Assembly: GCF_900172345.1 (NCBI RefSeq)
Contig: NZ_FWFY01000012.1
Location: forward strand, 1 to 64,000
Direction of reading: 5' to 3'
Source of the DNA: Limimaricola soesokkakensis
GTDB taxonomy: Bacteria > Pseudomonadota > Alphaproteobacteria > Rhodobacterales > Rhodobacteraceae
Length of the DNA stretch: 64,000 bases
Within the stretch, counting starts at the first letter, position 1, and each line of letters opens with the position of its first letter. Under the pieces are notes generated by a model. The model had not been told where the DNA came from. It worked only from the letters and a program-made list of their open reading frames with translations, and made no database searches. This document shows positions 53,066 through 56,716 of the stretch, piece after piece. A program made the translations under genes and the position numbers.

Positions 53066-53752
53066 TCAGGTCGTGGCGATCACCGCCACCTCGGTGATAT
53101 CATCGTCCACCGACCGGCAGGCCGCCAGCAGCCGCGTCGCGAGATGCGTCTGCACATAGGCCGCGTGAAACCGTGACGGCGCGACGAGTGTAAGCCGCCC
53201 GCCCGATCGCCCGGCGCGCTCCAGCGCCCTGAGCCACGATGCGTAGGGCCCGGGCGCCTCGGCATGGAGCACCGCCTGCGCGAGGGCCCACTCGGTCCCG
53301 GCCGACAGGTCGGGCGGCGGAACCTCTCCCCTGATCGGCAGCGGCACCACCTTGCCGTCATCCTCAGACCCTTCGAGCCGATGCGCGAAGTCGGGACCGA
53401 CACGGTCCCATTCCGGCCGCGTGTCGGCGAGCAGCCGCTCAATGCCGAGCCGGTATTCCGCGACGCGACCGCGCGCGCCAGCGCGGCTCAGCTCGAGCCA
53501 TCCCCTGCCCCGCAGCTTGGCCATCTCGCGCTTGACCGTGCGCTCGTCCACGGACCAGAGCCGGGCGATCTCGCGCTGGCCGACCGCGAGTTCGTCGCGG
53601 CCCCAGTTGTAGCGCGCGGTGATCAGCGTCATCAGCCGCAGCGCAAGCACCTGCTCGGTCCGGCCTCCGGCGAGCGCATGCGCACCGAGGGCGGTGAGGA
53701 TGTCGTATTTACGAGCCGCCGCCCCCCGGCCCACGGCCTTTGTCATTAACAT
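53066..53752 (-). CDS. DnaA-like plasmid replication initiator
   Basis: A 228-residue protein resembling the DnaA-like replicases of Rhodobacterales plasmids. Residues 15-110 contain a winged-helix-type region (LALRLMTLITARYNW, VGQREIARLWSVDERTVKREM). The C-terminal part (about 155-225) resembles DnaA domain I: WALAQAVL, ASWLRALE and LTLVAPSRFHAAYVQTH are recognisable. There is no AAA+ ATPase domain, so it is not DnaA itself. ATG 53752 follows AGGACAGGG; the open frame runs to 53977 but the added N-terminus does not look coding. It is divergent from parAB, with iteron-like repeats between, the usual replicon layout. Confidence 0.82.
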   Translation of the reverse strand: MLMTKAVGRGAAARKYDILTALGAHALAGGRTEQVLALRLMTLITARYNWGRDELAVGQREIARLWSVDERTVKREMAKLRGRGWLELSRAGARGRVAEYRLGIERLLADTRPEWDRVGPDFAHRLEGSEDDGKVVPLPIRGEVPPPDLSAGTEWALAQAVLHAEAPGPYASWLRALERAGRSGGRLTLVAPSRFHAAYVQTHLATRLLAACRSVDDDITEVAVIATT

Positions 53753-53968: not shown

Positions 53969-54044
53969 GGGGGACATACTGCGTGTCCCCTATTGGGCTG
54001 GAAATGTCCCCCTATCGGCCTTCTTATGGGTGAGGTCTGTCCCC
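53969..54044. repeat. Iteron-like TGTCCCC repeats
   Basis: TGTCCCC occurs at 53984, 54005 and 54038 on the plus strand and inverted (GGGGGACA) at 53969-53976. Two copies extend to TGTCCCCTATTGGG and TGTCCCCCTATCGG. Start-to-start spacings are 21 and 33 bp. They are candidate binding sites for the DnaA-like initiator. Confidence 0.6.
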
Positions 54045-54228
54045 TCTTCCCCGGCCATTACCTCCTGACCACTCGCGCCCGGCGGCGAATCGAAAGCGCC
54101 TTGTGGCGCAGGCGTTTCGCGATTCCGGCGTATTTCCGGTTTCGATCATAAATGGCTTTTCATGCGCCGCAAATCCGGCGTAGATCGTGACATCGCAAGA
54201 ATTAGCGTTCCCAAGGGTTCCGGTTTCG

Positions 54229-54244
54229 GTTCCCCGCGGGGAAC
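54229..54244. repeat. parS-like palindrome 1 (before parA)
   Basis: Perfect 16-bp palindrome GTTCCCCGCGGGGAAC, 18 bp before the parA ATG and just before its ribosome-binding site. ParB or ParA bound here could also repress parAB. Confidence 0.75.
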
Positions 54245-54261
54245 CGGAGGGCAGAGACCGC

Positions 54262-55557
54262 ATGTTCACACACACCGACCTGGCCCGGCTGCAGTCGCAG
54301 TCGCTCAAGATGCAGGGCTTCATCCGGCAGCAGACCTTCTCGCCAGAGAACGAGAAGAGCCTGCGCCGCTTCTCGAGCTGGGAGGTGGCAGAGCTGATCC
54401 TCGGTCTAAACCCCTCGACCTTCCGGGGCCGGCTCGCCGCCGATCCGTCGCTGCCGCAGGGGCTGGTCGAGGAAGACGGGCGCCAGCGCTGGTACTCGCT
54501 CGAGGAGATCGGCGAGCTGCGCCGGCGGCTGCGCCACAAGAACAAGCCGATGCTGCCGCCCCGCCCCGCCGGCAAGCGCGCGATCCGCGCCGCCGTCGCC
54601 AACTTCAAGGGCGGCGCCGGCAAGTCGACCGTGGCGCTGCACTTCGCCCATGCGGCGGCGCTCGACGGCTACCGGGTGCTCTGCGTCGACTTCGACCCGC
54701 AAGCGACGCTGTCGCATTCGATGGGCCTGTCGGACGTGGCCGAGGAATACACGGTCTGGGGCATCATGGCGCGCGACCTGATCCGCGAGACCGAGCGGAT
54801 GAACGCCGCCGGGCGCGGTGCCGAGTCGGGCGCCGCCCTGCCCGAGCGCAAGTTGCCCGCCTCGGTTACCGGCATGGGGCTCGACGATCTGCGCGTCACC
54901 GACTTCATCAAGCCGACCTCCTGGCCCACCATCGACCTCGTCCCCTCCTGCGCCAACGCCGCCTTCGTCGAGTTCGCCTCGGCCCAGTATCGGCACCTGA
55001 ACCCGGAGTGGTCGTTCTTCGCCGCCGTCGACCGTTATCTCGATCACCTGCCCGATGACGCCTACGACATCATCCTGTTCGATTGCCCGCCGGCGATCGG
55101 CTACCAGTCGATGAACGCTGTCTTCGCCGCAGACGTGCTCTATATCCCCTCGGGGCCCGGCTACTGGGAGTACGACTCCACCACCTCCTTCATCGGTCAG
55201 CTCGCCGAGGCGCTCGAGGATCTGGGCCGGTTCCGCGGTGCCGTGCCACCGGGCACCGAGCCCGAGAAACACTTCTCGGACATCCGGTTCCTGCTGACCC
55301 GGTTCGAGCCCAACAACGACCTGCACCGGGCGATGCAGCAGGCGTTTCACAAGGTGTTCGGCCCGCATGTCGCCGAGCACCCGATCGAGATGACCCGTGC
55401 AGTCGAACAGTCGGGCCGGTTCCTGAGCTCGGTCTACGAGATCGACTATCGCAACATGACCCGCGAGACTTGGCGGCGTGCCCGCGCCTCCTTTGATCGC
55501 GCCTATGACGAGTTCCGCGCCACTCTGGTGGCGGCGTGGGACAAGCTGGAGGACTGA
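54262..55557 (+). CDS. parA: ParA/RepA-type partition ATPase
   Basis: A 431-residue Walker-type ATPase for plasmid segregation. The N-terminal ~100 residues form a helix-turn-helix domain (FSSWEVAELILGLNPSTFRGRL). The ATPase domain begins at about 108, with deviant Walker A KGGAGKST (116-123), VLCVDFDPQATLS (A') and IILFDCPPAIGY (Walker B). The long form with N-terminal DNA-binding domain is typical of plasmid ParA/RepA proteins that autorepress. ATG 54262 is chosen for its GGAGGG site. The frame extends upstream to 54187 but would then run through the parS-like palindrome. parB starts 1 nt after its stop. Confidence 0.93.
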   Translation: MFTHTDLARLQSQSLKMQGFIRQQTFSPENEKSLRRFSSWEVAELILGLNPSTFRGRLAADPSLPQGLVEEDGRQRWYSLEEIGELRRRLRHKNKPMLPPRPAGKRAIRAAVANFKGGAGKSTVALHFAHAAALDGYRVLCVDFDPQATLSHSMGLSDVAEEYTVWGIMARDLIRETERMNAAGRGAESGAALPERKLPASVTGMGLDDLRVTDFIKPTSWPTIDLVPSCANAAFVEFASAQYRHLNPEWSFFAAVDRYLDHLPDDAYDIILFDCPPAIGYQSMNAVFAADVLYIPSGPGYWEYDSTTSFIGQLAEALEDLGRFRGAVPPGTEPEKHFSDIRFLLTRFEPNNDLHRAMQQAFHKVFGPHVAEHPIEMTRAVEQSGRFLSSVYEIDYRNMTRETWRRARASFDRAYDEFRATLVAAWDKLED

Positions 55558-55558
55558 G

Positions 55559-56653
55559 ATGGCCAAGAAACGCAGCGTCTTCGACATCGACTTCACGCCC
55601 GACGCGCCGGAGCCGGACCGGTTCCCCGCGGGGAACCCCGCGCCGCAGCTGGAACCCGAGCCGCCACAAACGGCGCCGCGGCGCGGGCCGATGGCCTCGG
55701 CGATTACCGAGACCGCCGAGGCGGCGCGTGGCCGGGCCGAAGCCGAAGCGGCGATCCGGGCTGAGAACGACCAGCTGGCGCATGAGCATGTGCGGCTCAA
55801 GAAGCTCGGTTTGATCACCGACCTGATCGCGATCGATGCGGTCAGGACCTCGAAACTTGTGCGCGATCGCGCCAAGACGAAGGATCCCGAGATCGAGGAG
55901 TTGAAGCTTTCGATCCAGGATATCGGGCTTTCGAACCCCATCCGGGTCGAACAGGACGGGCAGGGCGGCTACGAGCTGATCCAGGGCTATCGCCGTCTTT
56001 CGGCGTTCCGCGAGTTGTTGGAGCAGACCGGCGACCAGCGCTATGCGAAGATCCCGGCCGCGATGGTTCCCCGCGGGGAACCGGTGCGCGATCTCTACCG
56101 GAAGATGGTCGATGAGAATCTGGTGCGAAAGGACATCTCGTTCGGCGAGATGGCGCAGCTGGCGCTGAGCTATGCCGAGCAGACCGAGATCACACCGCAT
56201 GATGCGGTGTCGGAACTCTATGCCTCGGCCCTGAAACAGAAGCGCAGCTACATTCGCAGCTTCACCCGGGTGCTCGAAGGTGCCAAGGGCAACATCCGCC
56301 ACCCCGAGGCAATTCCGCGCGCGCTTGGCCTCGAGTTGTTCAAGATCGTCGATGCCGACCCGATGCTCGGTGACGAGATGATCGAGATGCTCGCGCGCGC
56401 GCCGGAACGTGACGCCGAGGCCGAGATCGCGGTGCTCAAGGACTTCGTGCATCGCGCCCCGAAGATCGTGAAGCCGCGCCCGAAATCGGTGTCGAAGACG
56501 ATGCTCCGGCTGCCGCGCCCCGAGGGCGAGGCGAAGATCGCGGCCTCCGATGGACGGGTCGAGCTACGGCTCGCACGCGATTTCTCGGCGCTCGACCGGG
56601 CAAGGCTGCAACGCGCCTTCGAAGCCTTCTTCGACGCGCTGGACGCCAAATGA
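55559..56653 (+). CDS. parB: ParB/RepB-type centromere-binding protein
   Basis: A 364-residue partition protein. The ParB N-terminal (sulfiredoxin-like) domain (about 95-185) has LKLSIQDIGLSNPIRV and ELIQGYRRLSAFREL, matching the GxRR-type CTP-binding arm as GYRR. The helical DNA-binding domain follows (about 190-270; SFGEMAQLALSYAEQ, KRSYIRSFTRVLEGA). A polar N-terminal ~60 residues probably contacts ParA. Two perfect copies of the 16-bp palindrome lie inside its own coding sequence, in two different reading registers. It begins 1 nt after the parA stop, so translation is coupled. Confidence 0.92.
   Translation: MAKKRSVFDIDFTPDAPEPDRFPAGNPAPQLEPEPPQTAPRRGPMASAITETAEAARGRAEAEAAIRAENDQLAHEHVRLKKLGLITDLIAIDAVRTSKLVRDRAKTKDPEIEELKLSIQDIGLSNPIRVEQDGQGGYELIQGYRRLSAFRELLEQTGDQRYAKIPAAMVPRGEPVRDLYRKMVDENLVRKDISFGEMAQLALSYAEQTEITPHDAVSELYASALKQKRSYIRSFTRVLEGAKGNIRHPEAIPRALGLELFKIVDADPMLGDEMIEMLARAPERDAEAEIAVLKDFVHRAPKIVKPRPKSVSKTMLRLPRPEGEAKIAASDGRVELRLARDFSALDRARLQRAFEAFFDALDAK
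55621..55636. repeat. parS-like palindrome 2 (inside parB, codons 21-26)
   Basis: Perfect copy of GTTCCCCGCGGGGAAC within the 5' part of parB, read as part of FPAGN. Confidence 0.75.
56066..56081. repeat. parS-like palindrome 3 (inside parB, mid-gene)
   Basis: Perfect copy of the same 16-mer, here read in another register as VPRGEP. It lies 445 bp from palindrome 2. Confidence 0.75.
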
Positions 56654-56662
56654 AAAAGGCCG

Positions 56663-56678
56663 GTTCCCCGCGGGGAAC
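56663..56678. repeat. parS-like palindrome 4 (after parB)
   Basis: Perfect copy of the 16-mer 9 bp after the parB stop, extended to a 26-bp palindrome by flanking GGCCG/CGGCC. It may double as a transcription terminator. Confidence 0.75.
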
Positions 56679-56716
56679 CGGCCTGCAATTGCGAATATCC
56701 CTTCGGATATAAGGAT

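Follow-up and report, generated by a model that had tools for sequence, protein, structure and literature searches.

Four perfect palindromes of 16 bp lie in and around a parAB gene pair of Limimaricola soesokkakensis, which raises the question of which protein reads them. The window analysed here is the 64-kb start of contig NZ_FWFY01000012.1, which is 119,434 bp long, and a search of it confirmed what a preliminary description had claimed, namely that the exact sequence GTTCCCCGCGGGGAAC occurs at 54229, 55621, 56066 and 56663 and at no other place in the window. When up to three mismatches are allowed, five matches are found, compared to a mean of 0.74 in 100 dinucleotide shuffles, none of which reached five. 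We consider it highly likely that these palindromes are the parS centromere sites of a low-copy replicon of the DnaA-like I type, and that the lysine at position 226 of its ParB protein (K226) reads their outermost bases.

The copies are arranged around two adjacent plus-strand genes, parA (54262..55557), encoding a ParA ATPase of 431 amino acids with an N-terminal extension (PF13614, 3.4e-24), and parB (55559..56653), encoding a protein of 364 amino acids that belongs to the ParB-clamp family (PF02195, 2.4e-6). The start of parA was chosen from homologues with matches beginning at residue 1. This pairing of a ParA ATPase gene with an adjacent clamp-family gene is that of a ParABS system (type Ia-like). 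Site 1 (54229..54244, 18-bp core 54228-54245) stops 17 bp short of the ATG of parA, site 2 (55621..55636) lies in the 5' end of parB, site 3 (56066..56081) lies within parB where it codes for VPRGE(P), and site 4 is found 9 bp 3' of parB, its 16-mer (56663-56678) forming the centre of a perfect palindrome of 28 bp (56657..56684). The copies had been described as lying before, within and after parAB; this stands for the sequence 5' of parA, for parB itself and for the sequence 3' of parB, but parA of this locus holds no copy of GTTCCCCGCGGGGAAC. Site 1 also adjoins the likely ribosome-binding stretch of parA.

The palindrome is confined to this locus. Throughout the genome (43 contigs, 3,936,691 bases), the only exact copies are the four of the window, and no copy with a single mismatch exists anywhere in these 3.94 Mb; four matches with two mismatches lie on other contigs, compared to two for a reversed-pattern control. 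Across eight genomes of the genus, this one included, 31 of 31 exact copies are located at the parAB locus and the reversed control gave none. The whole-genome search that the preliminary description had proposed as a check therefore returned copies only on the own replicon beside parAB, as expected for the parS of a ParABS system, and the same holds for the genus. Two other partition loci of this genome have palindromes of their own: the chromosomal parAB (contig C22) carries two copies of TGTTTCACGTGAAACA, with no further copy at up to one mismatch, and contig C32 carries four copies of GTTTCGCGCGCGAAAC at its parAB (locus L061, 3974-5281), with no exact copy and three 1-mismatch copies elsewhere.

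Related loci carry related palindromes. In total, 105 loci encoding a related ParB were compared; 80 came from genome contigs, and named plasmids, relatives and one viral contig supplied the others, the whole set containing some near-duplicates. Each parAB region was scanned blindly for its best repeated palindrome, with one shuffle per locus as control, and 103 of the 105 loci yielded a repeated palindrome from one small sequence group; L170 gave an unrelated palindrome and L159 no result. The shuffles scored at most 1.2, a value shared by L074 and L179, with L170 at 0.6 and all others from 1.5 to 16. The palindromes fall into classes, referred to below by their first bases: TGTCCCCGCGGGGACA (TGT) in 55 loci, GTTCCCCGCGGGGAAC (GTT) in 27, TTTCCCCGCGGGGAAA (TTT) in 11 and CTTCCCCGCGGGGAAG (CTT) in four, followed by CTTACCCGCGGGTAAG, CTTATCCGCGGATAAG and CGTCCCCGCGGGGACG (CTTA, CTTAT and CGT, in no particular order) with two loci each. 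Thus 27 of the 103 loci have the palindrome of the window and 76 have other classes, which lie outside the GTTnnnnGCnnnnAAC form. From class to class both arms of the palindrome switch jointly. A census of 394 genomes, with at most five candidates scored per genome, found a ParB of the window type in 97, exactly one in each, though the palindrome classes differ.

A single residue of ParB goes together with these classes. Position 226 separates the outer bases in 102 of 102 ParBs, the next best ParB column reaching 0.902: K226 occurs with GTT (26 loci), R226 with TGT or CGT (57), P226 (10) or A226 (1) with TTT, and Y226 (8) with the CTT types. Three loci were dropped from this count, namely L117 (short ParB), L159 (no palindrome in the first stretch) and L170 (unrelated palindrome). 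Among 26 further rows, one has a gap at this position and all 25 readable ones fit, a result that overstates independence as some of the held-out rows are training replicons (for example, L195 and L052). From this held-out set (L182-L210), L190, L196, L199 and L202 were dropped for a palindrome score that was too low or lacking; on inspection, L196 and L199/L226 fit the rule. In the distant L077-type group, lysine is found with GTT or GTA palindromes where one was detected. The same column comparison gave 1.00 for ParB residue 226 (103 rows), compared to 0.85 for the best ParA column (103 rows), which lies near an embedded site, and 0.80 for the best Rep column (96 rows). Since residue 226 tracks the class and no column of ParA or Rep does so as well, ParB is likely the reader of the palindrome. 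The inner positions 4-5, which distinguish CTTC, CTTA and CTTAT, are separated by four ParB columns between 181 and 299, with too few rows to single out one of them.

The predicted fold places residue 226 at the start of the recognition helix. In an AlphaFold2 model of ParB (mean predicted local distance difference test score 84.9), a helix spanning 226-242 begins at K226 and forms the second helix of a helix-turn-helix (HTH), and Foldseek matches the model to structures of Noc bound to its binding site (NBS), of KorB and of Caulobacter ParB bound to parS. Residues G143, R145, R146, A149, E186, N187 and R190 are invariant in 59 ParBs, and we take these to be the places of the nucleotide motifs of the clamp. 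When aligned to Noc, position 226 pairs with the glycine of LGKGQST, and R229 with the glutamine that follows three residues later. In ParB and Noc, an outer base of the site depends on the recognition-helix residue R173/Q173 (Jalal et al. 2020, PMC7383237). If the position of R229 is taken as the Q173 type, 226 would correspond to Gly170 and lie outside the studied positions 173, 179, 184 and 201.

Several observations weigh against this assignment. The classes follow clades, so that the 102 agreements stand for far fewer than 102 independent events: the site varies together with the DNA-reading helix of ParB, but in few independent steps, and a quick tree built without column 226 requires only four residue changes and five changes in the first three bases. 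Three loci lack the expected palindrome: L159 (Y226; the same replicon as L199/L226) has none near parAB and two copies of CTTCCCCGTGGGGAAG farther downstream, L170 (Y226) has no class palindrome within 6.9 kb, and L190 (K at 226) has none in the stretch read. Within the own genome, no palindrome was found at the C17 partition locus, and those of C19 and of the RepABC contig C34 were given only a cursory look. In addition, the idea that co-resident sister plasmids drive the switching of classes is unsupported, as each of the 97 genomes in the census showed exactly one such replicon among the at most five candidates scored per genome.

Further evidence comes from the position of the sites and from the codons into which they are written. 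Among the 27 GTT-class loci, counterparts of site 1 (26 copies) lie at -31 to -70 in 25 loci, a count from which eight rows were excluded that are not all true duplicates, and 25 copies fall within the first 150 bp of parB, as site 2 does. At 71 exact sites in 23 of these loci, the other four being excluded, a G stands directly 5' in 61 cases and a C directly 3' in 64; because these flanking bases recur, the actual unit is probably 18 bp rather than 16, and an 18-bp core, GGTTCCCCGCGGGGAACC, is common to all four copies of the window. The two sites in parB codons appear to be kept by selection on the DNA. At site 3, tested in 25 of the 27 GTT-class loci, the third bases of V170 and G173 are invariant (25/25) and that of R172 is kept in 23 of 25, compared to none fixed among 39 other conserved four-fold sites of parB, which have a mean identity of 0.58; P175, of which only the first base falls in the palindrome, varies. 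A comparable site is embedded in parA outside the GTT class. At around +980 of parA, the class-specific palindrome is present in 73 of the 76 non-GTT loci (TGT 52/55, TTT 11/11, CTT 4/4, and 2/2 each for CTTA, CTTAT and CGT) and absent from 27 of 27 GTT loci and from L170. In the rows printed, the ParA peptide encoded there varies by class (VPAGT; FPAGK or FPVGK; LPAGK or LPTGK; LSADK) and reads VPPGT or LPSGT in the GTT class. Taken together, confinement, the tracking by a ParB residue and the frozen third bases at site 3 support the centromere proposed in the preliminary description, and the four sites very probably are parS.

The palindromes could instead belong to the DnaA-like Rep, as origin iterons or for handcuffing, which we regard as very improbable. 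They are indeed no more than about 3 kb away from rep, and the gap between rep and parA holds four repeats of TGTCCCC/GGGGACA (53970..54044, at 53970, 53984, 54005 and 54038), candidate Rep iterons whose 7-mer equals a half-site of the TGT-class palindrome. These repeats are not themselves palindromic parS sites. At least one TGTCCCC outside near-palindromes was found in 93 of 98 related loci (0 to 5 each; 6 of 104 were unreadable for too little upstream sequence), in every palindrome class except that of L170. As the 7-mer is found across all well-sampled classes, the sites presumed to bind Rep do not change along with the palindrome; furthermore, most copies of the palindrome are situated within parAB or past it, and the best Rep column follows the classes less well than ParB residue 226.

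Equally improbable is a purely regulatory origin, in which site 1 is an operator that represses parA, site 4 ends the transcript of the convergent DUF2934 gene and the remaining copies are passive. The distance of site 1 from the parA ATG would suit an operator, and at site 4 the minus strand reads as a 28-bp hairpin with a T tract, terminator-like in appearance and situated behind the DUF2934 gene. Neither function accounts for two copies within parB or for the 17 copies (up to one mismatch) at locus L068, and terminators would not be expected to share one palindrome class at every position of a replicon. Such roles can go together with that of a centromere: site 1 may also take part in autoregulation of the par genes, and site 4 may be a centromere site that doubles as terminator. 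That the palindromes are a dispersed or mobile repeat, akin to repetitive extragenic palindromic elements, or are conserved by descent only is hardly credible, for although GC-rich genomes readily give rise to short GC-rich palindromes, the rest of the genome is free of exact and 1-mismatch copies and the rest of the eight genus genomes of exact ones, the copies change position yet stay perfect, both arms change together, and synonymous sites are frozen at site 3.

A partial parallel to the rule for residue 226 in this ParB is seen in a second ParB family, that of contig C32. Its ParB shares about 31% identity with that of the window and its palindromes have different inner bases, but here too a palindrome is present in four copies at the own parAB and the outer bases vary with the same helix position. 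The test covered 90 rows, six unreadable ones being left out, of which five have TGT sites. Loci with R have a readable site in 58 of 68 cases, with TGT or CGT in 185 of 206 half-sites, and none of the 58 has a mainly purine outermost base. Loci with K have a site in 7 of 12 cases, with GGT or AGT in 23 of 26 half-sites, and the outermost base is mainly a purine in five of the seven, two ties being counted as not. Two of two A loci have mixed half-sites and two of two F loci have no single half-site. Three independent contrasts between K and R, about 1.7 in favour of the rule and 0 against, do not suffice for a sign test. This second family would thus fit a switch in which K goes with G or A and R with T or C at the outermost position, A and F being too few. 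On balance, we slightly favour the broader view that, in plasmid ParBs of the Rhodobacterales, a natural specificity switch for the outermost bases of the centromere sits at the first position of the recognition helix (226 here), where chromosomal ParB and Noc have a conserved glycine, and that the centromere dictates residues of ParA, because parA codons contain the class-specific site (VPAGT, FPAGK, LPAGK, LSADK).

The genes of the locus, from left to right, are rep on the minus strand, parA, parB, the convergent DUF2934 gene, queF and a phosphomannomutase-like gene. The predicted replication initiator gene rep (53066..53752, minus strand) encodes a DnaA-like protein with a weak match to DnaA_N (PF11638, 4.5e-5), its 23.5 bits being slightly below the gathering score of 24.6; its homologues are annotated as 'DnaA N-terminal domain-containing protein'. 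The start at 53752 was set by shorter annotated homologues, the open frame extending to 53977. Limimaricola variabilis NZ_CP139694 has the same gene order, its rep being annotated as a hypothetical protein. Plasmid pLokhon02 of Limimaricola hongkongensis (103,367 bp) is classed as DnaA-like I (PMC4572655), as are the Sulfitobacter plasmids pDSM14862_b and pDSM110277_c (PMC9025767). All three carry GTTCCCCGCGGGGAAC at parAB, and both Rep and the Par proteins of the window are homologous to those of these plasmids, the identity of Rep in the aligned part being 72% to pLokhon02 (L046) and 59% to L065 and L066. Since these named relatives are so classed in print and Rep is 59-72% identical, the replicon is assigned by homology to the DnaA-like I type of the Rhodobacterales and not to RepABC. 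ParA matches the plasmid RepA model TIGR03453 only partially, with 208 bits against a cut-off of 348, and together with the DnaA-like initiator this does not describe a repABC operon, though no search was aimed at repC.

Some related loci deviate in copy number or context. With up to one mismatch, TGTCCCCGCGGGGACA-like palindromes number 17 at L068 (Salipiger CCB-MM3) and 10 at L078 (Leisingera thetidis), compared to four in the window. One contig of 200.8 kb (G009:C9) holds two rep-parAB modules, L055 and L058, with palindromes of the CTTACCC and GTAACCC types, and is perhaps a fused plasmid. In genome G125, loci L212, L213 and L214 (contigs C2, C3 and C4) carry the GTTTCGCG, TGTCCCC and GTAACCC types, respectively. 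Viral contigs account for three loci, of which one (L179) is a close relative.

A mechanism consistent with these findings can be outlined. As a dimeric clamp of the ParB/Noc/KorB kind, ParB would probably place one HTH recognition helix into each half-site of its 18-bp working unit GGTTCCCCGCGGGGAACC, with residue 226 at the start of that helix reading the outermost bases, in this case lysine and hence GTT. By analogy with the ParB/Noc family, ParB would load at the palindrome, close and spread with cytidine triphosphate, after which ParA would move the ParB complexes apart so that both daughter cells receive the plasmid, and site 1, before parA, would also serve autoregulation. A replicon type that is common in marine Rhodobacterales thus gains a defined candidate centromere, and the related loci form a natural experiment in which about 100 replicons pair five residue types at one position with distinct centromere sequences. 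A change of partition specificity, and hence of plasmid compatibility, becomes testable by single amino-acid swaps and short duplexes. 

No paper in the open-licence literature was found to give the exact string GTTCCCCGCGGGGAAC or TGTCCCCGCGGGGACA, nor was a prior statement of the residue-226 rule or of the sites in parA codons found there. The work of Petersen et al. (2011, msq310) on the DnaA-like replicons of the Rhodobacterales may already give the DnaA-like palindrome. PMC9044938 mentions palindromes 'unique to each plasmid', shown in its Fig. 2; as the strain treated there has a DnaA-like plasmid, the palindrome sequence may appear in that figure.

Among known systems, the parS of RepABC plasmids is similar in several respects. 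The parS of these replicons has the form GTTnnnnGCnnnnAAC/GTTNNNNGCNNNNAAC (PMC9040568), and PMC5613091 and PMC9040568 describe repeated palindromes, some inside coding sequence, as ParB anchors that set compatibility. The sites of the window resemble these as 16-bp palindromes that are repeated and in part lie in coding sequence, and in RepABC plasmids the palindrome goes with the compatibility group (PMC5613091). The preliminary description rightly noted that GTTCCCCGCGGGGAAC fits a form known from alphaproteobacterial plasmids, but this form belongs to RepABC. The locus of the window is unlike RepABC in its DnaA-like rep, in a ParA that stays below the RepA cut-off and in its TGT, TTT and CTT sisters, which lie outside the form. 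The form GTTN4GCN4AAC is not diagnostic since the replicon is DnaA-like I; GTTCCCCGCGGGGAAC itself matches GTTNNNNGCNNNNAAC, yet only 27 of the 103 related loci retain this match. The palindrome as a mark of RepABC membership is thus ruled out by the DnaA-like rep, the ParA score and the 76 of 103 loci that do not fit. Agreement with the DnaA-like I replicons of the Rhodobacterales extends to the order rep-parA-parB and to homology, and no structural difference was seen; the text consulted on DnaA-like replicons names no palindrome for them. Chromosomal parS (TGTTTCACGTGAAACA in this genome) and the NBS are read by proteins of related fold and HTH, and in ParB and Noc, too, a residue of the recognition helix governs an outer base of the site (PMC7383237). 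They differ in their bases and in the varying residue, which here is 226 (by the alignment, at the place of the conserved Gly170) and not 173, 179, 184 or 201. ParABS centromeres are of a known kind, and it is the link of residue 226 to the outermost bases, with its partial parallel in a second family, that seems new.

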